Notes under the pieces: model-generated
Database searches by the model: none
The model's input: only the letters and a program-made list of their open reading frames with translations
What the model was told of the DNA's origin: nothing
Shown: one piece after another, positions 20,201-41,910 of the stretch
Layout of the letters: each line of letters begins with the position of its first letter
Numbering within the stretch: the first letter of the stretch is position 1
Made by a program: the position numbers and the translations under genes
Assembly (NCBI RefSeq): GCF_000002425.4
Contig: NC_037255.1
Span: forward strand, 8,579,458 to 8,643,457
Source of the DNA: Physcomitrium patens
Lineage: Eukaryota > Streptophyta > Bryopsida > Funariales > Funariaceae
DNA length: 64,000 nucleotides
Reading direction: 5' to 3'

Positions 20201-20204
20201 TAAG

Positions 20205-20221
20205 TGGTGAACCCGACGTGA
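20205..20221 (+). other. FDD2 primer-binding site, tRNA-Trp-like
   Basis: TGGTGAACCCGACGTGA, four bases after the LTR. Its complement ends TCACGTCGGGTTCACCA, which I recall as the 3' end of plant tRNA-Trp. The same site heads FDD5, and a slightly decayed one heads FDD3. Confidence 0.75.
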
Positions 20222-20271
20222 AAGCTTGAGGTAGAAGGTATTGGATTTCGGTTGATTTTATCTTTATTTTT

Positions 20272-21260: not shown

Positions 21261-21267
21261 TAATAAT

Positions 21268-22645
21268 ATGATACGGCAGGGAATTATTTACTGGAAAGAT
21301 GGGAAGATAGCATTGAAAGATAGGGAGGATCTTCTTCAAACCAATTTTGGCGAGGGAGGAATGAGAGCATTCGTTCAAGATTACTTAAAAGAGCATGAAA
21401 CAGTAGTACAAGAAAGTGCAAGTTATGGTGCTAGAGTAGATGATGAAATTGGTGGAAGTACGGAAACTAGTGAGTTTTGGGCTTCTGCCGTTTCTACAAT
21501 GCAAGAAGGGAAATTACCTCGAGAAGCGTTATTGAGAACTGCAGCTACAATACGAGGAAGAACAGATTGGGAGGATCCTGTTGAGTCTCTTTCAGTTCAT
21601 GCATATATTGCTAAGAACCAACATGAAGCTTTGATGGAAGAAAAAAGACAAGGAAATTTTGATGATACTAGAGAAGGAAATTCTTTTAAGAGGCAAACTC
21701 GAGGAGACAAGGCTCGAGAGGCAGCTTCACAAGAATTGCCTGTAAAGAATACCTCAGCATCATTGGGAGAAAAAACAATGGAGACAAAAGAAAAAGGCAA
21801 ATCAATTGCTTATAAGCTACTTTCTGATATTGAAGCGACAACAAATTTGAAAGAGGTGTTGGAAGAACGTATATTAAACGCTAAGGTGGAATTCACATTG
21901 AAAGAAGTCTTGGGAATTGCAAAGAAGGAGTTTCATGATGTTATCATTGACAGCATTAAGCGAAAGAGGCAATTAATGGACGAAACTGGAATGAGTCATG
22001 CTATTGATGCAAGAATATGTAGAGATGAAGAAGAGGTTGATATTGGTTACAAGCAACCAACAAATGAAAAGAATGGGTATAATCAGCGAGTACGTTTCGA
22101 AGATTCTAGTGACAAGGAAATGGGAACTTTGAGCCATTATACTCAAAAGCATTGGGTAAGGGCAACTACTGAGGTATTGGTGAAGGTAGGAGATATAGAA
22201 GAACCAATAGTTGTCTTGGTGGACCATGGTTCTGAAATAAATCTCATGTCTAAAGATCTTTATAAGAAGCAAAAATGGCTAATTGATATGGAACATGGAT
22301 GGGCAATACAAGCAGCTAATAACACACGAGGCGAATTATGTGGAGCTTGTCCAGATGTCAAAATTCGGATTGGGGATGTTGCGACGGAGCAACATTTCTT
22401 CGTTCAAGATACAACGTCTTATCCGTTGATTTTAGGACAACCTTATATCACGGCAACACGGATGGAAACAAAGGTACTTGACGATGGTTCTGCTTATGCA
22501 AGGGTACGGAGCGAAGATGGGAGGAAAGCTGTACAATTTCTAACAGTACCTCCTAACCATGAACGAAATCGAGATAGGTTGAGGGAGAAACCATTGCCAA
22601 AGATTGTTGAAGGATTTAAGGATTTTGGAGAGGTACCACTATAAA
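21268..22645 (+). CDS. FDD2 linker and aspartic protease
   Basis: About 300 residues of charged linker, then the protease. Its catalytic block reads 'VVLVDHGSEINLMSKDLY' (about 22210-22260), with Asp-His-Gly-Ser where the retropepsin signature is Asp-Ser/Thr-Gly-Ala. The closing block is 'YPLILGQPYITATRM'. Same frame as gag, so gag and protease form one unit. It ends at 'FKDFGEVPL', the same place in FDD3 and FDD5. Pol follows in the -1 frame with a short overlap. Confidence 0.82.
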
Positions 22646-24660
22646 GCGAGATTATGGATGTATAAAAGAGGAGGTACTCTCGCGAGATGAAGGTGCCTTT
22701 GATGCGAGTTTTATTGGTATATTGGAGAATGGAAATATTATGTATAAGAAAGTTGATGATTTTAAAAGAAAAGAAAGAAAAAGATTATATGATATTGAAG
22801 GACAGTTATGCAAGATACGTACATTGCAAGATGATGAGAGGATTTTAGGTGTTTATGAAGAAAATGGGCTGGAAGATTCATTGGAATTGATTACATCTAT
22901 TGGGTTAGGGGATAATGATAAGATTGTTGAGATTCATTCGAGAGAGGTTTATACCATGCTTGAATCTTTTCAAGCACCAGAAGTCACAGTAGAGACGAGA
23001 TATAAAACGGCAGATAAGAAGGTAAAGCCTGTTGCCGGACCATTACCAGAGGATTCTAAAGAACAAATGGGAGAAGCATCAAAAGAAGCAAGTTTAAGAG
23101 ATCCAATGAGTATTGGACATCAGTTTACTGAAGAGACTTTTGAAGAATTGAAGATTGGTTCTGATGATTCTTTATTGCCGGAGGAAATTACTTGCTTCAA
23201 AAAGATGTTGGTTAAACAAGGTAGATCGTTTGCCTTCGAATCTCATGAAATTGGGTGTGTGGATCCAAATATTGTAACACGTATGGTTATATTCACTGTA
23301 CCGCATGTACCTTGGAATCTAAGACTGATTCCAGTACCAAGGGCACATTTACCTAAATTGGTGGAACTATTGAAAGAAAAGATAAAGATAAAAATATTAG
23401 AACCTTCATTTGCGCCGTATTCTAGTCGATGGTTTACGGTACCTAAGAAGAATGGGTCACTGCGGTTTATTCAAGATATGCAGCCGGTGAATGCTGTAAC
23501 TGTCAGGAATGCAGGAATTGGACCTATTGTGGATGAATTTGCTGAGGCGTTTGCTGGAAGGGCGATCTATTCAATGGGTGATTTGTATTCAGGTTATGAT
23601 CAATTTCAACTTGTCGAAGGAAGTAGAGATATGACAACGATGAGGACATCGCTTGGATTGGTTAGAATGTGCACTCTTCCTCAAGGCACGACCAACTCAA
23701 TTGCGCATATGATGAATGGGATGAATAAGGTATTCAGAGATTTTATTCCAAAAAAGACTATGCCTTTTCTGGATGATGTTCCAATAAAAGGGTGCAGAGA
23801 AGGAGACAAGGATGAAACTTTAGATACGAGGGGGTGTCGCAGATATGTTGTTGATCATATACAAGATTGTGAAAAGATTTTAAATCGGCTTGGAGAAGTT
23901 CATCTTACATTATTGGGTATGAAGTCCGTATTTGGAGTGCGAGAGGTTGTAATTGTTGGACATTTATGTGGATCTTACGAAAGAAAACCAGATCCGACTA
24001 AAGTTGATGCAATTGAAAGGATGAAAGAGGATTGTGATTCTTTAACAGAGGTTCGCAGGTTTTTGGGTGCATGTGTATTTTATCGAATCTGGATCCCTCA
24101 TTTTGCTCACATAGCGGATCCATTATATGAACTGTTACGCAAGGGCTACCGATTTAAATGGGAAGAAAGGCATATTCAGGCAATAGAAAGATTGAAGAAA
24201 TTATTGATGTCACCTCCAATATTGAGGAAGGTTGATTATAAGTGCAATAGACCAGTGATTCTTACTGTGGACGCTAGTCCAATTGCCATTGGAAAGGCTG
24301 TGGGTCAAGATGATTCAAATGGGAATAGATTTGCAGTTCGATTTGGGACTAAAGTTTTAAGTATTCGTCAGCGTGCATATTCGCAAGTCAAAAGAGAACT
24401 TTGGGGAGTTGTTTCGACTATGAAAGCTGAAAAGGACTATTTGATTGCAGCAGTAGTAGTAATTGAAACAGATTGCTTGCCATTGCTTGGAATGATTATT
24501 AACTGTTCAATGCCAGATATTGCAATGTTGAAATGGATTGCTTATATTAAGTCACTAAATCCAGAATTTAAGCATATCACTGGAAAGGACAATTTAGTAG
24601 CAGACATGCTATCTCGAGCAAGATACGAGAGGGAAGACGAAATGGTTGAAGACATTGATA
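22646..24660 (+). CDS. FDD2 reverse transcriptase and RNase H
   Basis: A pol N-terminal extension (about 220 residues) precedes the RT palm. Palm blocks are 'RWFTVPKKNGSLRFIQDM' (about 23430), 'GDLYSGYDQFQLVEGS' (23580), 'CTLPQGTTNSIAHMMNGM' (23675) and catalytic 'PFLDDVPIKG' (23765). RNase H shows 'ILTVDASPIAIG' (24260), 'VKRELWGVV' (24390), 'IETDCLPLLGM' (24460) and 'DNLVADMLSR' (24590), giving the D-E-D-D set. This is the longest open stretch in the window (it runs on into integrase). Confidence 0.88.
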
Positions 24661-26119
24661 ATGTCAGATTGAAATTCTATTCAATATCAAATCTCAACAG
24701 AGAAGACAAGCTATTTCTTGAAGAATCTTATGAAGGAGAATTATTGGATATTGGTCATTATTTGAATACCTTGTCTAAGCAGGGGAATTGGTCTACAGAA
24801 AAATTCAAACAAATAAGAAAAAAAGCATATGGATTTTTACTTCGAGATGGATTCTTATGGAAGAGACCGAAGAAAGGAATTGGAATGCCACAACGAGTGA
24901 TAGGCAAAAGGGAAGAAAAACTAAAATTATTAAAGGAGTTTCATGATAGTGTATGGGCAGGGCATAGAGGAATCTGGGCTACTTTTGCTAAACTCAAAGA
25001 ACGATATTGGTGGAAAAATATGTATCGAGATGTGCTCTCATTTGTAAAGTCATGTAAAATCTGTCAATCGTATTCTAATATCCGACATCGAGATGGTCTT
25101 CATCCTACGTATCTCGTGGCTATTCATTTTAAATGGGTTGTTGATTTGGTTATTATGCCGGTTGGGTTATGGCAGATGAGATATTTGGTTTTAGCTTGGA
25201 AGATTTATCAAATCTAGTAGAAGGAAGAGCATTGAGGACAAAATCTATAGATGGGATTTGTAGATTTTTGCTTGAAGATGTCATTTGCCGTTACGGGTGC
25301 ATAGGAAAAATCACTGCAGATCGTGGAGAATTAAATGCACAAGAAGCTCGTAAGTTCTTTGAAAAATGTGGAGTTAAACTATCACTGACTACTGCTTATA
25401 ATCTGGAAGGGAATGCGAAAAGCGAACGCGGTCACCCGCCGATTGTGGAAGCATTGGTTAAAGCTTGTAATGGGAAGGTTAGAGAGTGGCCACGGCTTTT
25501 GTCATTTGCATTATGGGCTGATCGAACAAAACATAGTTCGGTGACAGGATATATGCCAATAGAACTTATGACAGGTCAAAAACCAATTATGCCGATTGAA
25601 GAAAAGGTACTTACTTGGAGTATGCTACCATGGGAAGATGGATTGACAAGAGAAGAACTTCTGGCTATTAGGATTCGAGAATTGGAGCAAAGAACGGAAG
25701 ATGTCCAGATAGCATTGGAAAGGTTAAAAAGAGCAAGGTTAGAAAACAAGGCGCGATTCAATAAGCAACATCGATTGAGACCAAAAGCAATCGAGGAAGG
25801 TGACTGGGTACTTGTTTATGACAATAGTCTGGATAATCAACATAGTACTTTGCGGAAATTTTCAAAACGTTGGTTTGGACCATATGTTGTAACAACTGTT
25901 CATGATAATGCGACTTACTCATAATGGGAGTTAGATGGTACAAAATTCAAAATACCAATTGCAGGGAAGCGAGTAAAAATATTTAAACGAAGACACGCAC
26001 AGATGAATATGGAAGACCTTAATGAAGGTACAGAGATTCCCCAACAAGAAGATGAAAGTGATATGGATAATGAAGGTGACGAAGACGAACAGGACAAAGA
26101 CGTAGGGGATATATTCTGA
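24661..26119 (+). pseudogene. FDD2 integrase with acidic tail
   Basis: The zinc domain is 'FHDSVWAGHRG' with 'SCKICQSY' (about 24930-25075). The DDE core has 'WVVDLVIMP' (25135), 'TADRGELNAQEA' (25310) and 'GNAKSERGHPP' (25405). The C-terminal part carries 'GDWVLVYDNSLDNQHS' and 'KRWFGPYVVTTVHDNATY'. An acidic tail of Glu/Asp/Gln ends near 26119. There is no chromodomain, so targeting must differ from the chromoviruses nearby. Confidence 0.85.
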
Positions 26120-26143
26120 ATCAAACAGCAATTGGGTAAATTG

Positions 26144-26181
26144 GTGCATACCGGAAGATGCACAGGTTCAGAGGGGGTGGA
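26144..26181 (+). other. FDD2 3' UTR hairpin and polypurine tract
   Basis: GTGCAT-ACCGGAAG-ATGCAC (26144-26163) is a perfect 6-bp hairpin between the end of pol and the PPT GAGGGGGTGGA, which abuts the 3' LTR at 26182. Confidence 0.82.
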
Positions 26182-27521
26182 TGTCGTGTTGTAACACGAG
26201 TATACAGTGAGAATAGAAAGAAAGGGGAATTTTATTAATATTCAGTTACCTCGAATATTCGGAGCATCAACCAACTCCAGTACAAATATTGAGTGGTCAG
26301 GTTCAGTCACTCCGTTACAGTCAGCCGAGGCATATTGAAATGCTCCATTCGATTCCAATAACAGGAGTCAACAAGAAGAGAAGGACCAATTCACACGATG
26401 GGTTCGAGGAGCCAATTGGATCCAATTTTGATAATCCAATCCGGGTCCTCTTATCCAATATGAGACCTGAATTGGCCGGTCAACCCAATGCAGTCTAATT
26501 ATGGGAAATCCAGGTCTTACTACGGGTCTTAGCCAATCTGACGCGAGGACCAATTTGACCCAATTACGGGAACATCCAGGTTACTACGGGCATCTTTTCT
26601 AATATAGGACCTGAATTGGTCGGGCGACTCAATGTGGTTCCGATTACGGGGTTCGATTCTGTTTCAGGCTGTCTTGTTCTCTGTGCCGTTTCAGGGAACG
26701 TTGTTTTCGGTAAATGGATTTCTTAAAGGTAAAAACGGAGGAGAAAGCTTGACGGCGAGAGCCAATTTCGGATCCAAGCTTGAGGTGGAGCCAATTCCGG
26801 ATCTAAGACGGAAGATTGAAGAAATTCAGAGGATAAGGTTAGGGGGGGATATAGTTTTGAGGGGGGGAGGTTTTTTTTTTTTTCGGGGGAATCGGGGGAG
26901 GAGCTAGTTTTCAAGCTTTTGCAAGGTTACCAGTTCGGTTTTCATTGGAGGTTTTTGAAGATTAAGGGAATTAGAGAGAGGAGCTTCATGCTTCGGGTCG
27001 GGGAAGAAAAGACATAGAATTTGGATTTTTCTTCTTCGTAGAGTTTTGGGAAGATTGAGGCAATCGCTGCTGAAGTCAGTGTTGTAATGGTGAATCGGGA
27101 TTTATAAATGAAGTGAGTTTGAATACTCTTGACTGTTTTGTAAAATCGAGTTACGTCTGTGATTGAAGTATTAAAGGGGTGTCTATAGGATTGAGTATGC
27201 GGAGTGAATGAAATTTATTGGGTTAATCTAACAGGACAGTCAGTGGATACAAGATAGTAAGTACAAAGAGGTATTGAAGATTAACAGTTTGGGTTGTTCG
27301 GGGTTCTCTGTAACGTCTAGAGACCTATCGGCTGAGGCAAAAAAAAGACTTCGACAAGCAGTCGAAGAGCATCCGTATAGATTTACGGTACATTGTTGCA
27401 GTCGTTTATATTCCAGCAGTCAAAAAACTGATAGACTGCTTGACTATCGGCGAATCTCCATACTACCTTCTACAACCAGACGCCCGGCGAGTTCTCGAGC
27501 AGGAAAGCACGTAATACGACA
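26182..27521 (+). repeat. FDD2 3' LTR
   Basis: 1340 bp, TGTCGT...ACGACA, about 97-98% identical by eye to the 5' LTR. The CTTCGAC/GTCGAAG hairpin is at 27349-27367. It is followed by the ACGC duplication. Confidence 0.93.
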
Positions 27522-27525
27522 ACGC

Positions 27526-28842
27526 TGTTGTGACTTGCGATGGTAAAGCTTGCAATGGAGTAACATTAACTAGCCCCTAAGTATTGGCACTTGAATGGGC
27601 TATTGTTTCGATCATCTGCAAATAACTATCCACTGATTCGTTCAAAGCCGGATATTAATAATTGCTTTGAACTGGTATCATCGTAGCACTCGTAGTTAAA
27701 AACTTATCATAATGGCAGTCCTCTCAAATCTTGGCTCTATCAAGGGATGCAAATACCGTAACTAGTTGAACTTCTTTTACAAACATTTTTAGCTCTGGTG
27801 GGTGCAAACCATTTATTAATATAGATAATATAAATGCCTCCGACATTTAGTGGTTCAGCCACTTACTAAGTATATCAGCCACTCGACCATAGTATGATTC
27901 CATCGCCTCTCATAGGATCATTTTGCTATTCATTAACCTTCCTCAAAGATCGTCTTCAAAACCAATTGGTCGAAAATGGGTCAAAAATGCATTCTTCAAT
28001 CTTTTCCAGTTCAAAAATTGACCAACTGGTTGACGGTTATATCATTCAAATGCCGTATCTTTTAAGGTTGCTGGCAACCATCGTAACCAAATATCCTCGG
28101 TTCTCCCATTATTGGTGACACATGCTGTCAAAAACTGTGACATTTGTTGATCTGAATCTGCACCCGGAAAGCTCCTAAAGGTAGGTAATGGAGCCACGCT
28201 AGTTGTGCGATCACTCACAGTACCCATTTGTACTGCTATGGGAACCGCTGGATTTCTTGTCGTCATTGAATTTGACAATGTGATACTTCATCGTTTGTTA
28301 ATATAGTCTGCGTCTCTTCCAAATATATTTTTTGAACTTTCCACCCTACTCAATTTGCTATTATTATCCTTGAACAAGTTTATTGGTTGAATAGGAGGTG
28401 AGAATGATGGATTTTGAAATACACTGAATTGGCCCTTATTGACCAATAATTTATGCCACTCTATAGAACCAGTTTTGATGGAATCGGCAGTTTCCGCTAT
28501 TGGAAACGTACCCAATGGAGTACCCAACTCCTCTGTGATTCCCCCACTCTTAGTTAACGGTCTCAGAAGAAACCCTAGCCTATTGACCAAATTTTTCGCA
28601 AGTGCTGTTGGCAATTTCTCTAACGGTATATACTTCAGAAATATTAGATGTCGATTAGTTTCTGGGTATGCTCGAATATGACGACAGGCATGCAACCATG
28701 GCTTAATCTAGCTTTGTCTATGATTCCTTTTTAACTTTCTTTGTTGCTCGTTTCGCAACAAATTTCTTGCTTGCGATCTCTCTATTCTTTCTCTTGACTG
28801 CCATATTTTCTTTACTGTTAAGTTCTCATTCTTAATAACCAT
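27526..28842 (-). pseudogene. OTA1 gag, N-terminal part
   Basis: The minus-strand start is near 28842, about 85 bases after the primer site. It shows 'YIPLEKLPTALAKNLVN' and 'GTPLGTFPIAETADS', matching OTA2 gag residues 70-130, then 'FRSFPGADSDQQMSQFL' near 28170, the capsid-core start. 27526-28040 is the middle of gag, heavily decayed. FDD2 separates this from the knuckle part. Confidence 0.8.
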
Positions 28843-28933
28843 ACTCTTTCATTATACTCTTCTGCAACTGCTACCTATTTTCCATCTACTTCAACCGGCA
28901 GTTAATACCTAACACTCCATGCTATTATCAATT

Positions 28934-28946
28934 TCCCCGGCAGCGG
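28934..28946 (-). other. OTA1 primer-binding site, split by a solo LTR
   Basis: The minus-strand PBS TGGCGCCGCTGCCGGGGA is divided between 30284-30288 (its first five bases) and 28934-28946. The solo LTR of the FDD1 family sits inside it with a GCGG duplication. The tRNA-Asp type agrees with OTA2. Confidence 0.85.
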
Positions 28947-30279
28947 TGTCGTGTTGTGGTTCGGCTACTATATGAAAATAATGTAAATATGTATTTAATA
29001 TATAATTTATTAAGTAACATGGTGAAAGCTATGTTAGTAGATTTTAGTTGGTTGTAGAATATAATTTGATTATTACTTTGAAAAGAGGTTGTTTAAAAAG
29101 ATTACTATAGAATTTGTATAACTTTAATTTCTTTTTGATAGTGGCTTTTAAGATTGGTTTTGGTTGATAGTAACTTCTAAATATTTAGAGTCACCTTTGT
29201 TAGACATTGGTGACATTTAAAAACTTATTTTGGTTCTTTTATTTGGTGTTTAGAGCATACATTATGTAAATCTTATAAGAAAAAGGATTGAAGAAGGATT
29301 TTGGTAGCAAAGGGAGGAATTAGGGCACCAATATAGATGAATGGAGATGAAAAATAAAAATCTCCATTCCTATTGGTCAAAAATCATGACCAATGGGCTT
29401 TGAGGAGGCTGCCCGAGGCCATATTAGGGATTAGGGTTAGTTTCTCGAGGCCATTCGAACTTTGAAGGCTAGGGTCAGAAGGTTTAGGTTTTTGATTAAG
29501 GTTTTGGTGCAAGTTTTGTGTCATTTGGGGTTTATATGAAGAAGTTATAGGCGCTCAAAGTTAAGGTGTAAGTTTTCGACGTACTGTCACTCTTTTGAGC
29601 ATACCGCACGCGTACGGACGGCAAACGAGGATCGGCGACCGGATTTGAAGAGAGAACTTTTTCGGCTACAGTTTGTGCATACTGTTTATCGAATTCCAAG
29701 CTTTTATGAAGGAGATATTGGCAGTTGAAGTCAGCGCTTGATATCTAAGGGTAGTAAGTAGCCCGAATTACTTGTGCTTGTGATTTGAGCTATATCTTAG
29801 ACAATTTGACGAGGTTTTAGCTCAAAATTTCCAAGATTGAGTGCAATCTTGTTATAAAGCTTTCTATACAAATTTTGTGTGATTTAGAGCTTGGGTTTAA
29901 GAGATATAAGGAAAATAGTTTTCGGGTGCTTGTAAGTTAGGGTTTTGTGCACCTGCTAGGGTTTCTTAGATGCCGAACGATCGGTGATTGATGTACGGTT
30001 CAATTTTGTTGTGGTAAAAGTTAAGTATAGCATCTAGCTTATGTAGAAATTTGAAACAAAGTGAACGGTTGGATTAGCTTTTATGAATTTTCAAAGTCTG
30101 ATGTAAAAAGGTCCTTGGCGGGAAGAAATATATTTTGAAGAATTTAAAGATATTTTGAATTTTTATACAAAGCAAGGAGTTTGTTTTTGGGAGCTAAGGC
30201 ATTATATAAAAAAGGAACCTAAACTCTCTATAGCTAGATATCTGGTGTATTCCTAGATAGAAAATCACGCAATAATACA
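28947..30279 (+). mobile_element. Solo LTR of the FDD1 family
   Basis: 1333 bp, TGTCGTGTTGTGG at the left and ...ATAATACA at the right, flanked by a perfect 4-bp duplication GCGG (28943-28946, 30280-30283). It is nearly identical to the FDD1 LTRs in reverse orientation. A solo LTR with an intact duplication is the product of LTR-LTR recombination that removed an internal region. The hairpin pair is at 29339-29369 and 29372-29394. Confidence 0.93.
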
Positions 30280-30291
30280 GCGGCGCCAAAA

Positions 30292-30989
30292 TGTGATTGT
30301 CGTTTTATTTACTCTAATTTATCTAATCAGAGTAAACCTGTGTAGGAGAATTTGAATACAGGGAAAGAATACTGCATGAGCTTACACGTTAGGGTCACAC
30401 AATTAACTATATTCCGCACTACTTCAAACACCCAGAAAATACTATAATGCTTTTCACTTCCTAATAATACTCCACCATCATTGATAACAACAACGTGTAA
30501 TCCTGCACTATCCTAAATGACAAGACATAATCATACTATAATCCAAACTCTGGAGTTCTTCACCATTAATTGCCTTCACATTACAATGTTTCACACAAAC
30601 ACAGACTCATTCTCTCTGCTGAACTACAATCAAATTTCAGCATTCAATCTTTCTTCTTCCCATTTAATAACAATCATACTTCCATTCCATAATTCACTTT
30701 CATAATATTCAAAAACTCTTAATCTTCTTATTCAAAGAAAATAACAAACAAAAGAAAAGAGGTAGCATCAAGCTTACCCCGACTCACACTATCATAGTTT
30801 GGCCCTTACTTCCTTTCTTCCATCTTCCTTATGCTACCATGAGATACCAACTGCTACATCTCTAATGAAAACTGCTTTTCCTAACTATTTATCCATTTTA
30901 CCTACTGAACTACCTTTTCAATAGTCATCTATCCCTGTTTACACAAAAACTAAGTATCTACAATTCAGCAAATAACTACTTATTCTACA
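30292..30989 (-). repeat. OTA1 5' LTR
   Basis: 698 bp, same length as the 3' LTR at 1906-2603, minus-strand start TGTAGAATAAG and end AATCACA. CTCAC follows at 30990-30994, completing the target duplication. Confidence 0.93.
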
Positions 30990-31103
30990 CTCACTCAAGA
31001 ATATGAGAAAGGGAGAGAGCACCATCAAAATTTGTAGTTGATGTAGTTATTTTCTCCAAGATAAAATAGAATTTTTTCAGTAGCCATAGTTTGGTCTTCT
31101 GAT

Positions 31104-31490
31104 ATGGATAGCCAAGAGATAGATACTATGTCAATCAGATTATCTCAACTGACTAGCTCACGAAGGCGACCCCGAGATGAAGTACTACCTACACCACGAC
31201 GACGATGGAGGATATCGAATAACCGATCACTGGTGATTGTATTTGAGTTTGAGCCTGCTTACGATGGTCAGCCAAAAGGCGTGTTTGTAGGATAATTTCA
31301 TAATGAGGACACGGAAGTTCATGCTTAGTCAGAAGTTGAAGGAGTGGGCCACTACCGTTGGCTTCAAGGGCCGATGAACCACTTGCCTCGTGAACAATAA
31401 TTGGAGTTCATAGCAGACGTTATGCGACAGATCTTCATTTTCTTACATTGTTACTAATCAACAACATTGCTTCTCAGAGACCTCGAAGCT
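31104..31490 (+). pseudogene. CHR1 post-pol coding remnant
   Basis: After the chromodomain region comes a short basic frame beginning 'MDSQEIDTMSIRLSQLT' and, in another frame near 31345-31400, 'GHYRWLQGPMNHLPRE'. The second block recurs in CHR2 near 41194-41250 as 'GHYRWLRGPINHLRRD'. Conservation between two diverged chromoviruses suggests that protein was once made here. Function unknown; no recognised domain. Confidence 0.4.
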
Positions 31491-31504
31491 AAAGGAGGGG
31501 GTGA
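31491..31504 (+). other. CHR1 polypurine tract
   Basis: AAAGGAGGGGGTGA directly before the LTR start TGTTAGGAAC. Confidence 0.75.
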
Positions 31505-31522
31505 TGTTAGGAACATAATCCT

Positions 31523-31745
31523 TAGAACCTTCTAGAGATAAGTTTCTAGAACCTTCTAGAGACAAGTTTCTAAAACCTTCTAGAAACAAGTCTCTGGAAC
31601 CTTCTAGAAGCTTCTTAGTTGGCAGAAGATATTAGGGACATAGTCCTTAGAACTGTCTAGAGATAAGTTTCTAGAACCTTCTAGAAGCAAGTCTCTGAAA
31701 CCTTCTAGAAGCTTCCTAGTTGGTAGAAGTTGCTTGAGAAGCTTC
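31523..31745 (+). promoter_or_regulatory. Heat-shock-element array in the CHR1 LTR
   Basis: Perfectly phased nGAAn/nTTCn modules at 5-bp steps: TTCnnGAAnnTTC at 31544-31556, GAAnnTTCnnGAAnnTTC at 31597-31614, TTCnnGAAnnTTCnnGAA at 31669-31686, TTCnnGAAnnTTC at 31703-31715 and GAAnnTTC at 31738-31745, with further two-module and imperfect sites between. Three or more modules is the classic heat-shock-factor site. The last lies 11 bases upstream of the TATA box. Confidence 0.75.
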
Positions 31746-31756
31746 CTAAATAGAAG

Positions 31757-31763
31757 TATATAT
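31757..31763 (+). promoter_or_regulatory. CHR1 LTR TATA box
   Basis: TATATAT after the heat-shock-element array and about 20 bases before the hairpin that should span the transcription start. The equivalent CHR2 TATA box is at 35865-35872. Confidence 0.65.
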
Positions 31764-31916
31764 TGGAATGAAGGCTGAAGAGTTCTTCAGTCTCGACAAC
31801 ACATCTTTTAGAGCTCTAGCTCACCTCTCTAGTGTTGATCTCATCTAATTAATCTACTTCTTACCAGTTCTTCTTGAACTTCTTGTTAGATCTCGAGTCT
31901 GTATTTCTGTAACCTT

Positions 31917-33017
31917 TGTCGTGTTGTAACACGAGTATACCGTGAAAATATAAAGAAAGGGGACTTTTATTAATGTTCAGTTACCTCGAATATTGGGAGC
32001 AACGATCGATTCTAGTGCCAATATTTAGGAGCCAGTTCAAACACCCTGTCACAATCGTTCAGGGCATACTTACTAATAATGAAATGCTCCGTTCGAGTCC
32101 AATAGTGGGAGTCAACAAAATTGAAAGGACTAAATTGATGACTGAACGAGCATGACTCAAAGGACCAATTTGACCCAATTACGGGAACATCCAAGACTTA
32201 CTCTGGGCCTCTTAGCCAATATGAGACCTAAATTGGTCGGGCGACTCAACGTGGTCCTGATTACGGGGGTTTCAATTCCGTTTCAGGTTGTCTTATTCTC
32301 TGTGTCGTTTCAGGGAATGTTGTTTCCGGAAAAAGAACCTTTTAAAAGGTAAAAAATGGAGGAGAAAGCTCTGACGGCGAAGCCAATTCCAAATCCAAGA
32401 TGGAAGATTGAAGAAATTGAGAGGCTAGGGTTTGAAAGGAAGGGATTTTTTAAGGGTCGGAGAGCTAGCTTCATGCTTCGGGGAGGGAAGGGAGGGGAGG
32501 GAAAAGACAGAGAATTGGGGTTTTTTTTTTCTTCATAGGGTGTTGAGAAGACTGAGGCAATCGTTGCTGAAAGTTAGTGTTGTATTGGTAAATTAGGATT
32601 TTAATGAAGTGGGTGTGATTACTCTTGGCTGTTTTGTGAAATCAAAGTTACGTCTGTAATTAAAGAATTAAAAGGGTGTCTATAGGATTGCGTATGTGGA
32701 GTGAATGAAAATTTTTGAGTTAATCTAACAAGACAGTCAGTGGATACAAGGTCGTGAGTATAAAGCGGTATCGAAGATTAGCACATTGGGTTGTTTGAGG
32801 TTCTCTGTAACGTCTAGACACCTATTGGCTGGGGCAAAAAGGATTTCGGCGAGTAGTCGAAGGACATCCATATAGATTTATGATATATTCTTACAATTAT
32901 TTATATTCCAACAGTAAAAAAAATCGATAGACTACTTGAATATTAGCGAATCTCCATACTACCTTCTACAGCTAGATGTCCAATGCATTCTCGAGCAGGA
33001 AAGCACGTAATACGACA
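31917..33017 (+). repeat. FDD3 5' LTR
   Basis: TGTCGTGTTGTAACACG...TACGACA. The FDD2-type LTR with shorter CCAAT and G-rich parts. The hairpin homologous to FDD2 20029-20047 is decayed here. Confidence 0.9.
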
Positions 33018-33021
33018 TAAG

Positions 33022-33038
33022 TGGTGAACCCAACATGA
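33022..33038 (+). other. FDD3 primer-binding site
   Basis: TGGTGAACCCAACATGA, two transitions from the FDD2/FDD5 site, four bases after the LTR. Confidence 0.7.
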
Positions 33039-33088
33039 AAGCTTGAGGTGGAAGGTATTGGATTTTGTTTGATTATATTTTTATTTTT

Positions 33089-34350
33089 ATGGAGAATGAA
33101 AATAAAAATTTTGAAGGATCTTTGGGAGGAGTTTCTGGTGGGGGTTCTTCTAAAGGATAAGGTATGCACATGGATCCGTCTATTGCTAGTATGTTTCAAG
33201 CCTTCTCATTATCAATGCAGCAACAGCAAAACAATGATCAAAAGAAAGCTTTGGCAACCAAAGCATTGCAAGCAGTTGTCAATAAAATTGATCAATTTGA
33301 TGGAAGGAATATTTCAAGGTATTTAAGATGTAATGTTCGTGAAATGGAATTAAATCAGATTTCTGAGAAGAAAATGGTTGAATTATTTAGACTTGCCATG
33401 ATACCGGAGATAAGAGACCATATTACATTGATTACGGATCGTTATGGGAATTCATGGGAGGTTTTTTTACATGCATTAAAAGATGAATATTTCTTGGAAG
33501 ATGCTGATCACGTTACTAAGAAGCTGTTTCTGGAATGGATTGAATGGCCCAATAAGAATTTACAAGCAATAGAGCTACTAAGGGAATTTAAGAGGCAGTA
33601 CTCTCAATTATCGAAGGTAGAAAAATTGACATTGGAGCCGAACAAAGTTGATCTATTTCTTCAAGCTGCTGATAGAGAATTGCAAGGGAAATTAGAACTC
33701 CTTCTTAAAGACAAAGAAGAAGATGAAGGATTGACAATAAAGTGGAAGAACATTGAAGATGCGGTGGGGTTGCTTACAAAAAGAGAAAGGAGGAAGGATA
33801 GGAGCAATATTCTGAAAAAAGTACAAGCACCCAAAGCTCCAATACGTACAACACCACCAACAATGCCTACAGTTCAACCTTCGACATCCTTATCAAAGAA
33901 AGCAGATATGGGGATGGAAGAAATTATACGAGGAATGCGAGATCTTCAAATCAAATTGGCAAGACTTGAAGAGAATACTTCTACAAATAATTCGAAGAAT
34001 GTTTCAAAACAAGGATATGTACAAAGATGCATTTGGTGTGATGACAATTCACACACTAGGAAAGATTGCAATGAATTTAATAATATGATACGGCAAGGAA
34101 TTATTTGCTGGAAAGATGGAAAGATAGCATTAAAAGATAGGGAGGATCTTCTTCAAACCAATTTTAACAAGGGAGGAATGAGAGCATTGGTTCAAGATTA
34201 CTTAAAAGAGCATGAAACAAGAGCACGAGAAAGTGCAAGTTATGGTGCTAGAGTAGATGATGACCTTGGTGGAAGTATGGAAATTAGTGAGTTTTGGGCT
34301 TCTGCCGTTTCTACAATGCAAGAAGGGAAATTACCTTGAGAAGCGTTATT
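33089..34350 (+). CDS. FDD3 gag
   Basis: Co-linear with FDD2 gag. The capsid-like part has 'VNKIDQFDGRNISRYLRCNV' and 'EYFLEDADHVTKKLFLEWI'. The CCHC knuckle is intact here: 'CIWCDDNSHTRKDC' (about 34030-34070, C-X2-C-X4-H-X4-C), which identifies the nucleocapsid part for the whole family. Downstream is the same charged linker as in FDD2. Mostly open. Confidence 0.85.
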
Positions 34351-34447
34351 GAGGACTGCAGCTACAATACGAGGTGCAACAGATTGAGAGGATCTTGTTG
34401 AGTCTCTTTCAGTTCATGCATATATTGCTAAGAGCCAACATGAAGCT

Positions 34448-35461
34448 TTGATGGAAGAAAAGAGACGAGGAAATTTTGATGATACGAGAGAAGGAAATTC
34501 TTCTAAGAAGCAAACTCGAGGAAACAAGGCTCAAGAGGCAGCTTCACAAGAATTGCCTGTAAAGGATATCTCAGCATCATTGGAAGAAAAAACAAGGGAG
34601 ACAAAAGATAAGGGCAAATCAATTGCTTATAAGCTACTTTCTGACATTGAAGCGTCAATGAATTTGAAAGGGGTGTTGGAAGAACGTATATTAAACGCTA
34701 AAGTGGAATTCACATTGAAAGAAGTTTTGGAAATTGCAAAGAAGGAGTTTCATGATGTTATCATTGACAGCATTAAGCGAAAGAGGCAATTAATGGACGA
34801 AACTGGAATGAGTCATGCTATTAATGCAAGAATATATAAAGATGAAGAAGAGGTTGATATTGGTGATAAGCAACCAACAAATGAAAAGAATGGGTATAAT
34901 CAACGAATACGTTTAGAAGATTATTGTGATAAGGAAATAGAAACTTAGAGCCATTATACTCGAAAGCATTAGGCAAGGGTAACTACTGAGGTATTGATGA
35001 AAGTAGGGAATATAGAAGAACCAATAGTTGATTTAGTCGACCATGGTTCTGAAATAAATCTCATGTCTAAAGATCTTTATAAGAAGCAAAAATGGCCAAT
35101 TGATATGGAATATGGATGGGCAATACGAGCAGCTAATAACACATGGGGCGAATTATATGGAGCTTGTTCAGATGTCAAAATTCGGATTGGAGATGTTGAG
35201 ACGGAGCAACATTTCTTTGTTCAAGATACAACGTCTTATCCGTTGATTTTAGGACAACTTTATATTACGACAATACGGATAGAAAAAAAAGTACTTGACG
35301 ATGGTTCTGCTTATGCAAGGGTACGTAGCAAAGATAGGAGGAAAACTGTACAATTTCTAACAGTACCTCCTAACCATGAACGGAATCGAGATAGGTTGAG
35401 GGAGAAACCATTGCCAAAGATTGTTGAAGGATTTAAGGATTTTAGGGAGGTACCACTGTAA
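34448..35461 (+). pseudogene. FDD3 linker and aspartic protease
   Basis: Linker followed by the protease with catalytic block 'LVDHGSEINLMSKDLY' (about 35030-35075) and closing block 'YPLILGQLYITTIRI'. It ends 'REVPL' as in FDD2 and FDD5. The Asp-His-Gly-Ser active site is again present. Confidence 0.82.
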
Positions 35462-35864
35462 AGCGAGATTATGGAGGTACAAAACAGGAGGTACTCTCGT
35501 GAGATGAAGGTGCCTTTGATTGTCATGGCCATAATCATGTAAGCTAATAATTACATATACAAATAGGTTGAAGTAAGTAAAAGTAAGTAAAAGTAAGTTA
35601 ATTCTATAATATTTAATATGGAAGCTTCTTAGAAACTTCTTAGACGCTGCTTTGACTTCATAGGTGTCTTTAATTGACTTTTTGGATTAGAAACGTGGTC
35701 AACAAGTTGGCCATGTGCCACACATGTTGTTAGCTTGAAGATCAAGCTAACTATGTGGCCCACATGTAGAAAAACTTGCCTTGTAAGTCAAGGCATGTAC
35801 CCTACAAAGTCAATACATATTGAAGGTCCTCTAGAACGTCGCCATGTAGCCTCTAGTTAGAGAG

Positions 35865-35872
35865 TATATATA
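35865..35872 (+). promoter_or_regulatory. CHR2 LTR TATA box
   Basis: TATATATA, 31 bases upstream of ACTCTTGTCAA (35896-35906), the stretch that pairs with the primer site. The spacing suits transcription starting at that stretch. Confidence 0.7.
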
Positions 35873-35874
35873 GA

Positions 35875-35904
35875 GACAAGAGTGAAGGCTTCTTCACTCT
35901 TGTC
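35875..35904 (+). other. CHR2 start-site hairpin
   Basis: GACAAGAGTGAAG-gctt-CTTCACTCTTGTC: a perfect 13-bp stem with a 4-base loop. The right arm contains the self-priming sequence and the left arm resembles the primer site itself. The 3' LTR copy at 41704-41733 has one mismatch. Confidence 0.85.
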
Positions 35905-36083
35905 AACTCCTTTCTTTCTTCTAGTCTAGTTTCGAGGGTCTCTAATTTTCTTGTCTTTTGGCAATAGCCACTCCAGTTCTTCTTTCAATATATATACTTG
36001 TTTATATATATTTTGTTACCTTTCTTTGAGTGAAGGCTCACTTGTCTGAATTGTTTTTTCATCGAGTTCTTGTCCTTGACAAA

Positions 36084-36094
36084 TTGACAAGAGT
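36084..36094 (+). other. CHR2 candidate self-priming site
   Basis: TTGACAAGAGT, two bases after the 5' LTR, is the exact complement of ACTCTTGTCAA at 35896-35906. No tRNA-like primer site is visible. The arrangement matches Tf1-type self-priming, in which the RNA's own 5' end folds back as primer. Confidence 0.7.
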
Positions 36095-36293
36095 ACACCT
36101 ACAATATTAGAGTTTTGTCTAATCTTGATTAAGAGTGGATTACCCCTTTTTCTTAGTAAGATATAAGCATATTAGAAGTTGCGGATTATCCTCTTCTAAA
36201 TTGATATTATCCTTAGTATTTTCTTTGTCCGCAGGTCCTCTCTTCTATTTGACTTGAGCGTTATTAGACATCTTCTCTCTTCTAAGTGTTATC

Positions 36294-37300
36294 ATGGCAG
36301 AACTTCTTGAAATGAAGAGTGCAATGGCACAAATGCAAGAGCAATTGAAGGAGCTAATGCTTGCAATGCATCAACTCAATTTACCATGACAAGGAGCAAC
36401 AAGATTTGTAGGAAGTGAAGATATAGAAATGGTTGGAGCTGCTTCAACATCTGCACCAAATCATGTCTTTTTTCCTATGATAGAATGCCCTTCAAATGTT
36501 AGAGAATCAAGAATTTCCCTATCCAAGAAGTTTGATGGCACTAGATCTAAGTTTCGAGGATTTATCAATCAAGTGCAACTTGTGATTGAACTTCAATCCC
36601 AAAGCTATCCAACTCCAAGATCATAAGTTAGATTCATTGGTACGCTTCTTTTAGGTTCGGCACTATCGTGGTTTTCATCTTTTTTTGAACAACGAGATCC
36701 AATATTGGATAATCTAGTGGCTTTTTTGGCGGAGTTTCGATCCATGTATGGAGAACATGATGTAATTCGTGTTGCGACCAATAAGATCCGTATTTTACGA
36801 CAAGGCAATCGATCAATAACGTTATATGCTTCACAATTTTGACAACTTGCAACTGATATCAAGTGGGATGATGCTGCACTTATTAGCCAATTTTTTTATA
36901 GATTACAATATGAGGTAAAAAAATTAATGCTCAACTTACCTGATCTTCAAACATTGAGTCAAGCAATTGACTTTGCTGTGAAGTGCAATAATCGCCTTTT
37001 TGAATTCCGATCTGAAAACCGTACAAGTGGACCTCAATTTTACTATAATTCAATGGCAACACCAATACCTCTTCAATACATACATTTGGAAGTAGAGAAT
37101 ATGCAAATTGATGCAGTATGTTTCAAACCTCTTATTGAAGAAGAAAAGACTCGTCGTCGTCAAGAAGGATTATGTTTATATTGTAGAGAACCAAAGCACA
37201 CTGCTCAATATTATCCAAAGAAACGACGCAATCACAAAATGAGGAGTATGGCTGTGAAAGAAGATAATATGTCGGAAAACGAGTTTGTCCAGCTACAATA
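36294..37300 (+). pseudogene. CHR2 gag
   Basis: Starts 'MAELLEMKSAMAQMQEQLK', a short coiled-coil-like N-terminus. The core block 'KFDGTRSKFRGFINQVQL' is near 36530 and the capsid-like part follows. A degenerate CCHC ('LCLYCREPKHTAQYY') lies near 37165-37210. Same plan as CHR1. Broken. Confidence 0.8.
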
Positions 37301-37309
37301 GAGACCGTG

Positions 37310-37675
37310 CGGCTGGAACCTTGCACAACATCTAGTAAAGGTCCTATTCTCTCCTCAGTGCGCTCTCATTGTTTTACATTAAATGTTATTTTATGACCTA
37401 AACATTACAAAATCTCTGCCTTGTTAGATTCAAGAGTCTCAGCATGTTTTTTAGATGAAGAATTCACTAAAAGATATAGCATATCTTTAGTAAAGAAAAC
37501 CAAACCTGTTCATGTAGAAGTCATAGATGGTCGTCCATTGTCTTCTGGAGATATAACTCACGAAACCCTTCCTATAGAAGTAATAATCAATGGTCATAAT
37601 AGTTTTGTAGTATTTAATATCATTAGATCTCTCTCTAATCCAGTCATTTTAGATTTATCGTGGTTAAATAAATAA
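37310..37675 (+). pseudogene. CHR2 aspartic protease
   Basis: Active-site block 'ALLDSRVSACFLDEEF' (about 37420), then 'PVHVEVIDGRPLSSG' and the closing 'NPVILDLSWLNK'. Canonical gypsy layout with an altered Gly position. Confidence 0.8.
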
Positions 37676-37779
37676 AACCCTCAAATCGACTAGATTTCCC
37701 AAACTCTTACTTTCTCTAAAAGTATAACTAATAGTGTAGTTAAGCAAGTAGAGAGTCATAAGTCCAGTTGAATTAAACC

Positions 37780-39250
37780 CGTATTTATAGGTGCAAAAGC
37801 TTTCTTGTATGCTGCTAGGAAAGAATCACCATACATTATTTATGCCACACCCGTTTCTACTGGTGAAAAGACTTTAAGTGGCATTCCAAGCCAATATCAA
37901 GAATTTTAAGATGTATTTGAAAAAAAGAATGTGGATACACTCCTGGAACATCATCCCTATGTTTACTCAATTGACCTTCAAGAAAGAGCACAACCGCCAT
38001 TCGGACCAATCTATAGTTTATCACAAAATGAGTTGGCTGAACTCAAGGAGTATATTGAAGAAAATCTAGCCAAGAATTTCATACGCGATTCTAAATCTCC
38101 GGCAGGAGCTCCAATTCTATTTGTGAAGAAAAAAGATGGATCATTGCAGATGTGTGTTGATTATCGAGGACTCAACAAGATTACCATCAAAAATAGGTAT
38201 CCACTACCTTTAATATCCGAACTTTTTGATTAGCTGAATCAAGTTAAGATCTATACAAAAATAGATCTTCGGGGAGCATACAATCTAGTACGCATCACAG
38301 AAGGAGATGAATGGAAGACTACGTTTCGAACTAGGTATGGACATTTTGAATATAACATCATGCCTTTTGGACTTACAAATGTACCAGCAGCTTTTCAACA
38401 TCTAATGAATGATGTTTTTCGAGAATTTTTGGATAATTTTGTGGTATGTTATCTAGACGACATCTTGATCTATTCTAAGAATCCAAAAGAACATGAACTT
38501 CATGTTCATCGTGTGTTACAAAAATTAAGAGATGCAAGACTCTATGCCAAGATAGAAAAGTGTGTATTCCACACTACTCAAGTCGGTTTCTTAGGTTACA
38601 TCATTTTAAATGATGGACTTATGATGGATCCTAAGAAAGTTCAAACTATTATAGACTGGAAGATCCCAAAAATGATAAGAGATGTCCAATGTTTTTTGGA
38701 ATTTGCCAACTACTATCGGATCTTCATCAAAGACTTCTCTCGAGTTACAGCTCCACTTACACGTTTGACTTGTAAAGACAAACTCCAATGGAATCAAGAA
38801 GCGGAAGTTGCTTTTGAATCTTTGAAGACAGCATTTGTTTCTGTACCAATCTTGTATCGTGTTGATTTTTCCAAAGCATTCTTTATGGAATCAGATGTAT
38901 CGGACTTTACTGTGGGTGCGGTTTTATCACAAATAGGAACAGATGACAAACTTCATCCAGTAGCCTTTCATTCAAGAAAATTCTCAACAGCAGTAATCAA
39001 TTATGAGATCTATGACAAAGAACTTCTTGCAATTGTGGATTCTTTTCAAGAATGGCATTATTATCTAGAAGGCGCTTCCAATACACCGTGTATACGGATC
39101 ACAAGAACCTCAAATATTTTATGTCAGCACGCATATTAAATCGTCGCCAAGCTCGTTGGAGCATGTCTTTATCAAGATTCGAGTTCATCATTACTTATCG
39201 GCTAGGAAAACAATAAGGTTTATCCGATGCCTTGTCTAGACGTTCTTATC
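37780..39250 (+). pseudogene. CHR2 reverse transcriptase and RNase H
   Basis: RT blocks: '[20 protein letters not shown]' (about 38110), 'MPFGLTNVPAAFQHLMND' (38360) and catalytic 'CYLDDILIYSKN' (38448). RNase H: 'FFMESDVSDFTVGAVLSQ' (38880), 'HPVAFHSRKFS' (38955) and '[15 protein letters not shown]' (39010). These are Tcn1-like chromoviral signatures, unlike the F-L-D-D enzymes of the FDD group. Broken. Confidence 0.87.
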
Positions 39251-39384
39251 TTACACCAAAAGAAGGAGATGTAGCTTTTGAGCAACAAAAAACAGTTTTC
39301 TTGAAGCCGAAACAATTTCATCTTCGAGCAATAAAATCAACATTGATTGTTGATTTAACTTTCTTTAAGCAAGTCTAGTTAAGT

Positions 39385-40575
39385 ATGTCTTCAGACCCTC
39401 TTGTTCATGATATCAAGAACAATTCTTCTAAATCTCATGATCCATCTAAATTTGATTTCAAGAACAACCTATTCTATTTCGAAGGACGCCTATATGTTCC
39501 AGAAGGAGAAGCACGTTTACGTGTTCTTCAAGTTAGTCACAACTTCCCAACAGCAGGACATTTTGGATATAATAAGACTTTAGAGCTGATATCTAAGGAT
39601 TTATGGTGGCCTCAAATATGGAAGGCAGTTAAAGATTTTGTACAATCATGTGATGTTTGCTCAAGATCAAAAACTCCTCGTCATCGACCTTTTGGACTTC
39701 TTCAGCCATTACCTATTCCAGAACAACCATGGTCTTATGTTTCTATAGACTTCATGACGGATCTTCCAATCTCAGGTTCTTATGACTCTATATTCGTGAT
39801 AGTAGATCATTTTACCAAGATGGCACATTTTGTATCATGTACAAAATCTATCACAGGTGAAGAAACAGCTAAGCTCTTTCTCGACAATATCTATCGCTAT
39901 CATAGATTACCCAAGGATATAATATCAGATAGAGGAACTCAATTTGTATCATGATTTTGGCGGACTCTTTTCAAGATTCTTAAAGTGGATATAAAACTAT
40001 CGTTGGCATTCCATCCTCAAACTGATGGACAAACGGTTCGTGTTAATCAAGTTTTGGAGCAATATTTAAGATGTACCATTAATTACCAACAAGATGATTG
40101 GACAACTCTTTTGCCATTGGCAGAGTTTGCTTACAATAACACGGTACATTCTTCTACAAAACAAATACCTTTCTTTGCTAATTATGGTTATCATCCACGA
40201 CTTGATACTTTTGACTTTTTAAAAGTTGATAATCCTGCTGCAAAAGATTTGGCAATTCATTTATCAGAGCTACATGCAACGATGAAGGCGCAGTTAAAAG
40301 AGGCTCAAGAACAACAAAAGGCCAATGTAGATGTCTATCAAAAAGAACAACCATCATTCGTCTTGGGTGATAAGGTATGGCTACTTCGTCACAATATCAA
40401 GACCACTCGTTCTTGTGACAAGTTGGACTATCAAAGGTTGGGACCATTTTCTATTTCTGCACAAATCAATCCAGTTGCATATCATTTAGATCTACCAGAG
40501 TCAATAAAAATCCATCTAGTATTTCACGTGTCTCTTCTTGAACCATACAAGGCAGTGGACATACCAAGAAGATGA
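39385..40575 (+). pseudogene. CHR2 integrase
   Basis: The zinc domain shows 'AGHFGYNKTLELISKDLWWP' and 'CDVCSRSK' (about 39550-39670). The DDE core has 'SIDFMTDLPISGSYD' (39745), 'ISDRGTQFVS' (39925) and, in the next block, 'HPQTDGQTVRVNQ' (40010), where the usual Glu position is changed. The C-terminal GPY/F block is 'YQRLGPFSISAQINPVAYHL' (40430). Confidence 0.87.
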
Positions 40576-40599
40576 CAAGCTCTACCTCATCCTATAGAA

Positions 40600-40775
40600 G
40601 TAGACAATAATGAAGAGTTTGAAGTAGAAGTAGTCTTAGATTCAAGGCAGCACCGAAATAAATTAGAATATCTTATCCATTGGCACGGATATGGTATTAG
40701 TGAACGCACAAGGGAGCCAATAAAGAATCTTACAAATGCAGCAAAGGTGGTGGAGGCTTTTCATCGATGACATCC
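40600..40775 (+). pseudogene. CHR2 chromodomain
   Basis: 'VEVVLDSRQHRNKLEYLIHW' and 'GYGISERTREPIKNLTNAAK' form the three-strand-plus-helix pattern of a chromodomain at the integrase C-terminus. This fixes the element as a chromovirus. CHR1 keeps the end of the same domain at 1770-1865. Confidence 0.8.
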
Positions 40776-40879
40776 ATCAAAATCAAGATGAAAACCTTCT
40801 TTATAATAGAAACAACATCTAGACAAGATAACATTCTACTTTCAATTCTTGTTCGTAGCTTCATTGTAGTAGTGGCGCT

Positions 40880-41300
40880 CAGGAGATGGAAAACCAACAA
40901 CCAGCGGATTCAACTCAAGAGCCTTCATTTGCTGACCTGCGGGATGAGACATTATGATTATCACAACCTTCAAGATGACACAATCGAGATAAATATCTTC
41001 AAGAACGACATGTTCTTCCTTGAATAGATGGTAAAATACAATGCATTTGGTATCACAATTTGGGAAGGGACTTCCGATGTTTGGTGATTTTGTTAGAGGT
41101 ATGAACAACTGCTGATGGTGTTCCAAATATTCTAATCGAAGGAAGTTACGAAGGCCTCAACAATAATCAATTAACTGGGTGGTCTTCCCGCCCTGGTATG
41201 GGACACTACCGATGGTTGAGAGGCCCTATCAATCATCTTCGAAGAGATTAGAGATCAGAGTATGTGGCAAATACAATTCATCGCGTCATAGATTTCCTCA
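40880..41300 (+). pseudogene. CHR2 post-pol region
   Basis: A start-like 'MENQQPADSTQEPSFADLRD' near 40885 and a block 'GMGHYRWLRGPINHLRRD' near 41194-41250. The latter is shared with CHR1. The region lies between chromodomain and PPT, where most chromoviruses have nothing. Function unknown. Confidence 0.4.
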
Positions 41301-41333
41301 GCATATGATGACCGCTCCTCGTGGAACTCGTCT

Positions 41334-41349
41334 CTAGAAGGGAGGGTAA
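41334..41349 (+). other. CHR2 polypurine tract
   Basis: AGAAGGGAGGGTAA-type purine run directly before the 3' LTR (41350). Confidence 0.7.
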
Positions 41350-41910
41350 TATCATGGCCATAATCATGTAAGCTAATAATTACATATACAAATAGGTAGA
41401 AGTAAGTAAAAGTAGGTAAAAGTAAGTTAATTCTATAATATTTAATATAAAAGCTTCTCAGAAACTTCTTAGACGCTGCTTTGACTTCATATGTGTCTTT
41501 AATTGACTTTTTGGATTAGAAACGTGGTCAACAAGTTGGCCATGTGCCACACATGTTGTTAGCTTGAAGATCAAGCTAACTATGTGGCCCACACATAGAA
41601 AAACTTGCCTTATAAGTCAAGGCATGTGTCCTACAAAGTCAACACATATTGGAGGTCCTATAGAACGTTGCCACATAGCTCCTAGTTAGAGAGTATATAT
41701 AGAGACAAGAGTGAAGGCTTCTTCACTCTTATCAACTCCTTTCTTGCTTCTAGTCTAGTTTCAAGGGTCTCTAATTTTCTTGTCTTTTGGCAATAGCCAT
41801 TCCAGTTCTTCTTTCAATATATATACTTGTTTATATATATTTTGTTACCTCTCCTTGAGTGAAGGCTCACTTGTCTGAATTATTTTTTTATCGAGTTCTT
41901 ATCCTTGACA
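41350..41910 (+). repeat. CHR2 3' LTR
   Basis: 561 bp, the same length as the 5' copy. TATA box and start-site hairpin are conserved with one hairpin mismatch. Confidence 0.93.

Follow-up and report, generated by a model that had tools for sequence, protein, structure and literature searches.

A long terminal repeat (LTR) of a Ty3/gypsy chromovirus in the moss Physcomitrium patens carries, directly upstream of its TATA box, an array of GAA and TTC modules in exact 5-bp phase, and one of the sites in this array is found in thousands of exact copies in the moss genome. We consider it probable (about 0.6) that the array is the HSF-responsive regulatory half of the LTR promoter of this chromovirus, and that it has grown by duplications of 24 and 101 bp. 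Alternating nGAAn/TTC modules in 5-bp phase are the binding form for HSF trimers, and runs of at least three alternating GAA/TTC modules in 5-bp steps, which we call heat-shock elements (HSEs), are present both here and in the related LTRs. The array was found in a window of 64,000 nucleotides (C3:8579458-8643457 of the 470,438,890-base assembly of 101 contigs that was searched); positions given below without a contig name refer to this window, and the element that carries the array is called CHR1.

The array (31523..31745, plus strand) is built from 24-bp units, on which a 101-bp higher-order duplication is superimposed, as seen from a listing of the modules and from its tandem periods of 24 (7.6 copies) and 101 (1.8 copies). 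It includes two perfect four-module HSEs, GAACCTTCTAGAAGCTTC at 31597..31614 and TTCTAGAACCTTCTAGAA at 31669..31686, two three-module runs (31544-31556 and 31703-31715) and a proximal two-module HSE, GAAGCTTC (31738..31745), which ends 11 bp before the TATA box TATATAT (31757..31763; its core can be aligned with that of CHR2, a related element described below), all on the plus strand. The coordinates of these clusters and the 11-bp gap had been given in an initial annotation of this DNA, and all were correct on recount; absent from its list were further two-module sites, two upstream of the TATA box (31525-31532 and 31578-31585) and one downstream of it (31871-31878).

Phased runs are rare elsewhere in the window. 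A script listing of the 64 kb gave runs of at least three strictly 5-bp-phased modules starting at 31544, 31597, 31669 and 31703, and outside the CHR1 LTR at 38971; four out of these five are therefore within 31544-31715, and both strict four-module runs of the window sit in the CHR1 LTR array. The mean for dinucleotide-shuffled windows is 1.45 runs of three modules and 0.04 of four, and 0 out of 5000 shuffles of 31523-31763 attain the observed run values; if one mismatch is tolerated, all eight four-module sites of the window are inside the CHR1 LTR (0.95 expected per shuffled window), but these figures do not count independent events, as much of the excess is due to tandem duplication and the shuffles overstate independence.

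The carrier LTR is the 3' LTR of CHR1 (31505..31916, plus strand, lacking its last four bases). It begins TGTTAGGAACATA and is immediately preceded by the polypurine tract AAAGGAGGGGGTGA (31491..31504, plus strand), which is identical or nearly so in relatives; the LTRs of these relatives have the form TGTTAGGGACATA...CCGTGACA and a length of 415-422 bp. Because related LTRs end with CCGTGACA, we take the bases GATA (46497..46500, plus strand; GACA in relatives), found behind an inserted element (E2), as the inferred tail of the CHR1 LTR. The 3' untranslated region (30995..31504, plus strand) aligns at 92-93% to two whole copies of the family, L031 and L032, and resembles that of CHR2. Farther upstream CHR1 is split by a minus-strand nest: when 1905 is joined to 30995, the empty site so restored matches L031 across the join. 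The internal region to the left of the nest (1..1905, plus strand) contains gag, protease and then a deletion, according to domain matches and alignment to the two whole copies (1-1777 to L032 1102-2878; 9-1777 to L031 1079-2848, 92% identity; 1772-1905 to L031 4943-5076, 87% identity), and on the other side of the nest 30990-31910 corresponds to L031 5072-5997 (92% identity). Gag is kept (Retrotrans_gag and Ty3_capsid matches), the protease gives a weak RVP_2 match, and a remnant of the chromodomain is seen below the cut-off (Chromo, E 0.0037). The deletion of ∼2.1 kb starts shortly before the RT domain and reaches into the chromodomain, so that everything from RT to INT is gone; its flanks (∼1772-1777) overlap by ∼6 bp when aligned to L031, as in repair at short homology. 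The 5' LTR is outside the window. The CHR1 copy in the window is a dead fossil: deleted, split by a 29-kb nest, and with its LTR cut by E2.

The initial annotation had assigned the LTR to a chromovirus, and the whole relatives, to which the window copy aligns at 87-94%, bear this out. L031 has gag, PR+RT and INT+SH3 in order; L032 has the order RT-RNaseH-INT with a clear chromodomain after the integrase (Chromo, E 8.6e-16); and each has an LTR pair flanked by 5-bp target duplications (ATTAA/ATTAA and TAAAG/TAAAG, respectively). Domain order, chromodomain, LTR pair, polypurine tract and 5-bp duplication are thus all found in whole relatives, as in a Ty3/gypsy chromovirus. A Ty1/copia LTR had been considered from the form of the LTR and its polypurine tract; it was rejected once the empty site revealed gag, protease and chromodomain remnants, with which the whole copies and the alignment concur. 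Among the 120 best matches listed for the L031 integrase (a list of matches, not a tree), the few named ones are from Absidia, Anolis and one bacterial MAG. No relatives were found in viral_contigs or genome_contigs, where two LTR patterns gave 0 matches and a piece of the protease gave 0 confirmed ones. Two 17-mer matches were rejected as LTR relatives because they proved to be GC-rich viral contigs; these IMG/VR contigs (L001:6410-6427 and L002:3608-3626, GC 61-63%) have clusters of TTCTAGAA-like repeats unrelated to the LTR.

The minus-strand Ty3 element that splits CHR1 (1906..30989, with further nests) has 698-bp LTRs that are 94.7% identical, the target duplication CTCAC on both sides and a primer-site-like sequence, TGGCGCC, and nested insertions have swollen it to 29 kb. 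E2 is a second Ty3 element, inserted within the CHR1 LTR (31917..46492, plus strand; target duplication CCTT/CCGT, with one mismatch); its LTRs begin TGTCGTGTTGTAA and end ACGACA, and their K80 of 0.144 indicates that the CHR1 LTR was interrupted long ago. The possibility that the array is a part of E2 was rejected, since the LTR of E2 (TGTCGT...ACGACA, from 31917) begins after the array and the target duplication flanks E2. CHR2 is a chromovirus related to CHR1 and nested in E2 (35521..41910, plus strand; 561-bp LTRs, K80 0.054, target duplication TTGAT/TTCAT with one mismatch). The Ty3 lineage at 18863-27521 and 31917-46492 is abundant, with the A type at about 12% of the sampled 180 kb and relatives in Riccia and Physcomitrium, and has a weak DUF4100-like match in the gag region, below the cut-off; no chromodomain was detected by Pfam in the scanned pieces of this lineage. 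The DUF4100 match had raised the idea of a basidiomycete host, which the protein search led us to reject. For Ty3 element A, a neighbor in the window, the named protein relatives among 120 listed are from the liverwort Riccia and Physcomitrium. Differences between paired LTRs of the window are strongly biased towards transitions (transitions to transversions 41:9 for 18863/26182, 122:17 for 31917/45395, 25:4 for 35521/41350 and 32:5 for 1906/30292), as expected of heavily methylated DNA. A 1.3-kb LTR-like repeat is present in three copies (13752-15083, 28943-30290 and 4602-5945), and their 98-99% identity places them among the younger insertions of the window.

The array is conserved in other copies of the family. 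A genome search with the array scored 40 of 1956 candidates, which were the window itself and 39 other places; the 39 matched over full or near-full array length at 95-96% identity, and five weaker partial matches were also listed. 20 of the 39 places were fetched for comparison of their LTRs; being the best matches, they are biased toward the LTR type of the window. In 18 of 18 related LTRs, TATATAT occupies LTR position 253 and a gap of 11 bp separates it from the last HSE, and at least three four-module sites are found in 17 of these (the window has two, and the remaining LTR one); the other two of the 20 fetched LTRs have one and two additional 24-bp units. That other copies might lack the phased modules, a doubt raised with the initial annotation, was not borne out: phase is kept in all copies examined. 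Diversity among the 18 copies is lower in module columns (0.022) than in linker columns (0.036), a difference biased by the choice of module columns as those intact in most copies. Five LTR pairs of the CHR1-type family have K80 values of 0.017-0.063. We also observed two apparent LTR pairs of single elements (L011/L012 on contig C26 and L015/L016 on C3) whose members are unequal by one or two complete 24-bp HSE units; the length of an array can thus change upon insertion or later.

The exact site TTCTAGAACCTTCTAGAA occurs 5,680 times in the genome (2812 + 2868; the reversed control gave 0 + 0). We picked 20 places among the first 100 listed sites, all on contig C1 and spread over 0.1-2.5 Mb; as they were chosen for a perfect site, they are silent on LTRs that have lost it. 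All 20 match the core and R-U5 of the CHR1-type LTR, and 19 were measurable (L059 is without a TATA box at the expected place), three of them over 300 bp because no LTR start was recognisable. The 11-bp gap to the TATA box is found in 16 of the 19 (33, 33 and 41 bp in the others), and runs of five or six modules in eight of the 19, the longest being runs of six in L061 (C1:1031100) and L062 (C1:1240500); 15 distinct sequences of four or more modules were collected from these LTRs. The 16 LTRs with a recognisable start have U3s of 103, 127, 153, 228, 253, 262, 277, 304, 305 and 327 bp, and the steps of 24 and 101 bp among these lengths point to growth by duplication. Local tandem duplication as the source of the array had been proposed in the initial annotation, and LTRs with a U3 of 103, 127, 228 or about 252 bp agree with it. 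In a sample of 18 evenly spaced 10-kb pieces (180 kb in total, hence with a large sampling error), all 12 runs of at least four modules fall in four CHR1-family LTRs from two of the 18 pieces (L033 and L048); by best hit, CHR2-type elements cover 14.9% of this sample, the non-chromodomain A type 12.2% and the CHR1 array family 4.2%.

Repeated copies of a chance site can come from tandem duplication alone, and the array could be a neutral by-product, i.e. a chance GAACCTTCTAGAA unit multiplied by slippage in a repeat-prone U3, with no regulatory role. The tandem periods of the array are in keeping with this, as are the copies that differ by one and two 24-bp units, even between the LTRs of an apparent pair, and the window copy itself, in whose seven units module and linker columns are equally variable (4 of 12 columns each). 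However, a random unit seldom yields the phase: a letter-shuffled 24-bp unit set in tandem gave a run of at least three modules in only 83 out of 200,000 trials. More telling are the LTR types of the family (a, b and c). Types b and c share the core promoter of this family and are near-identical to each other from the TATA box through R and U5, but their U3s have been remade and have little in common. Type b (three LTRs), which begins TGTCATGGACATACATTGG, is phased despite its other linkers and different U3, using GAAGGTTCTAGAATATTC and GAAGGTTCTAGAAGATTC; type c (one LTR in the sample) has five-module sites. The two types have 15 and 26 lag-5 pairs, respectively (shuffle means 0.52 and 0.58; 0 out of 1000 shuffles attain the observed number in each case), and the proximal site, present in all three types, keeps its 11-bp gap in the three b-type LTRs and the c-type LTR. 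In type c, 31 out of 45 modules are separated from the proximal site by a multiple of 5 bp, 17 of them in the same alternation and 14 in the reverse, and the 5-bp spacing holds over ∼300 bp; when the U3 is taken as a whole, types a and b have no such common register (11 of 28 and 5 of 35 modules are in step with the proximal site). Phased arrays on such unlike U3s are the best evidence that what has been retained or re-formed is the array and not a single lucky unit, and we regard a purely neutral origin as distinctly improbable. It is also conceivable that what counts is an RNA or DNA structure formed by the palindromic units, or their recognition by another factor whose site resembles TTCTAGAA: TA (giving TTCTAGAA), CC and GC are the most frequent linkers, which makes a part of the array a simple palindrome. 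But the 37 U3s contain 12 module-linker combinations, of which three are dominant (460 out of 512), and to this explanation we give very little credence.

CHR2 offers a comparison within the window. As the initial annotation had it, CHR2 has isolated pairs only: two two-module sites ∼225 bp from the TATA box in its 5' LTR and one in its 3' LTR. CHR2 is a chromodomain element (Chromo, E 5.3e-11), and its core promoter and its 3' untranslated region both resemble those of CHR1 (0 out of 300 shuffles attain the similarity in either case); the overall similarity of the U3s is marginal (14 out of 300). The two have the 12-mer GAAGCTTCTTAG in common, a match whose length is equaled in 5 out of 2000 shuffles, and the similar offset of this 12-mer in the two elements means little, because U3s differ in length by 24 and 101 bp. 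A proto-HSE common to CHR2 and CHR1 is weakly suggested by these sequences. Among the 120 best matches listed for the CHR2 RT (again not a tree), the few named ones are from fungi.

If the array is the HSF-responsive half of the promoter, as we propose, the four- to six-module sites and the proximal two-module site at its fixed distance from the TATA box would recruit a host HSF, and active HSF, in heat or other proteotoxic stress, would switch on transcription of the element. Units of 24 bp and ∼100 bp would have been duplicated in tandem to lengthen the arrays, on more than one occasion within the family, and the arrays may have been favored for raising transcription. By analogy with the heat-activated element ONSEN, a CHR1-type LTR should act as an HSF-driven promoter, with HSF binding and heat induction as the expected behavior. 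A wider version of this proposal, possible in our view though doubtful, is that one family has seeded the moss genome with thousands of four- to six-module HSEs, lengthened and re-evolved time and again in different LTR types under selection for HSF capture, and that this load may be sufficient to titrate HSF or wire neighboring loci into the heat response.

The Ty3/gypsy families described for P. patens bear on whether heat would be the inducer. In the available text of PMC7466625, RLG1 has a chromodomain, 5092 complete copies and heat-shock-repressed expression; RLG2 has 529 complete copies and is strongly induced by heat and by ABA; and RLG3 has been recently mobile, its expression not being detected. 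The array family is likened to these as a Ty3/gypsy family of the same moss, with the chromodomain of RLG1 and, if it responds to heat, the behavior of RLG2; it differs in that RLG1 is heat-repressed and in that an HSE array is not described in the same text, and the comparison is by description and abundance. With more than 5,600 perfect sites against 529 complete RLG2 copies, the array family more likely belongs to RLG1 or RLG3, and a simple induction by heat would then be harder to uphold; abundance alone is not decisive for assigning it to any of the three. The arrays might accordingly bind HSFs and serve constitutive or developmental transcription, or be kept down in heat by repressor-type HSFs, the family as a whole not being heat-induced. 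RLG1, the dominant family in the TE islands of P. patens, is expressed in protonema in the absence of stress, and heat shock represses it (PMC7466625, available text); abundance and chromodomain fit RLG1 (or RLG3) better than RLG2. But RLG1 may instead be of the CHR2 type: CHR2-type elements are also candidates for RLG1, their cover in the genome sample is larger (14.9% versus 4.2%), and the single CHR2 copy examined is without an array. We consider this reading, HSF-binding arrays in a family not induced by heat, to be unlikely and keep to the HSF-responsive promoter as the probable one; if the family does turn out to be heat-repressed, it would be no less instructive, as a case where strong HSEs do not bring about induction by heat.

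Heat-driven retrotransposition via HSF sites is best known from one copia element of flowering plants, ONSEN. HSFA2 binds an element in the ONSEN LTR, and heat activation is largely through HSFA2 (PMC3907296, available text); its four-module element arose through duplication of a shorter proto-element (PMC5059998, available text). ONSEN (ATCOPIA78) and heat-responsive COPIA elements of Brassicaceae are like the moss family in having LTRs with phased nGAAn/nTTCn sites, the four-module form and an origin by duplication included (same sources). They differ in that ONSEN is a Ty1/copia element of flowering plants for which HSF dependence is shown, whereas the moss family, known from sequence alone, has the Ty3 domain order with a chromodomain instead of the Ty1/copia order, several four- to six-module sites, a variable array length and thousands of site copies.

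Other known systems share one or another of these features. The Tcn1-like chromoviruses of mosses and PpatensLTR are likewise Ty3 elements with a chromodomain, found in mosses and akin to fungal elements; a regulatory array in the LTR is not described for them in the available texts (PMC2864245, PMC3350952). In Cryptococcus, TCN3 and TCN12 are LTR retrotransposons with putative HSEs in their LTRs and raised mobilization at 37 C, but the host is a fungus and the putative HSEs number two in TCN3 and one in TCN12 (PMC12810828, available text). PHRE1 and PHRE2 of moso bamboo are Ty3/gypsy elements whose behavior under heat stress has been studied and whose LTRs have promoter activity; the reported partners of these LTRs are TCP, DOF and GATA factors, and HSEs go unmentioned in the main text as available (PMC8656106). 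Further heat-responsive Ty3/gypsy elements are collected in a review (PMC9780303, available text). The initial annotation had stressed that the heat-promoter architecture is here in a gypsy instead of a copia element; the Ty3 identity stands, and it is not new in itself, heat-responsive Ty3/gypsy elements having been published. Our searches of open-licence papers turned up no description of such arrays in any bryophyte chromovirus. The novelty lies in the scale, in arrays that combine several sites and vary in length, and in the remodelling of these arrays within one moss chromovirus family. As array length differs between copies, the family would be a natural dose series for asking how HSE number governs transposon activity, and this series could also test whether a transposon acts as an HSF sink or as a spreader of heat regulation. 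With HSE-array LTRs at thousands of sites, such a chromovirus would stand beside ONSEN as an independent case on a genomic scale.
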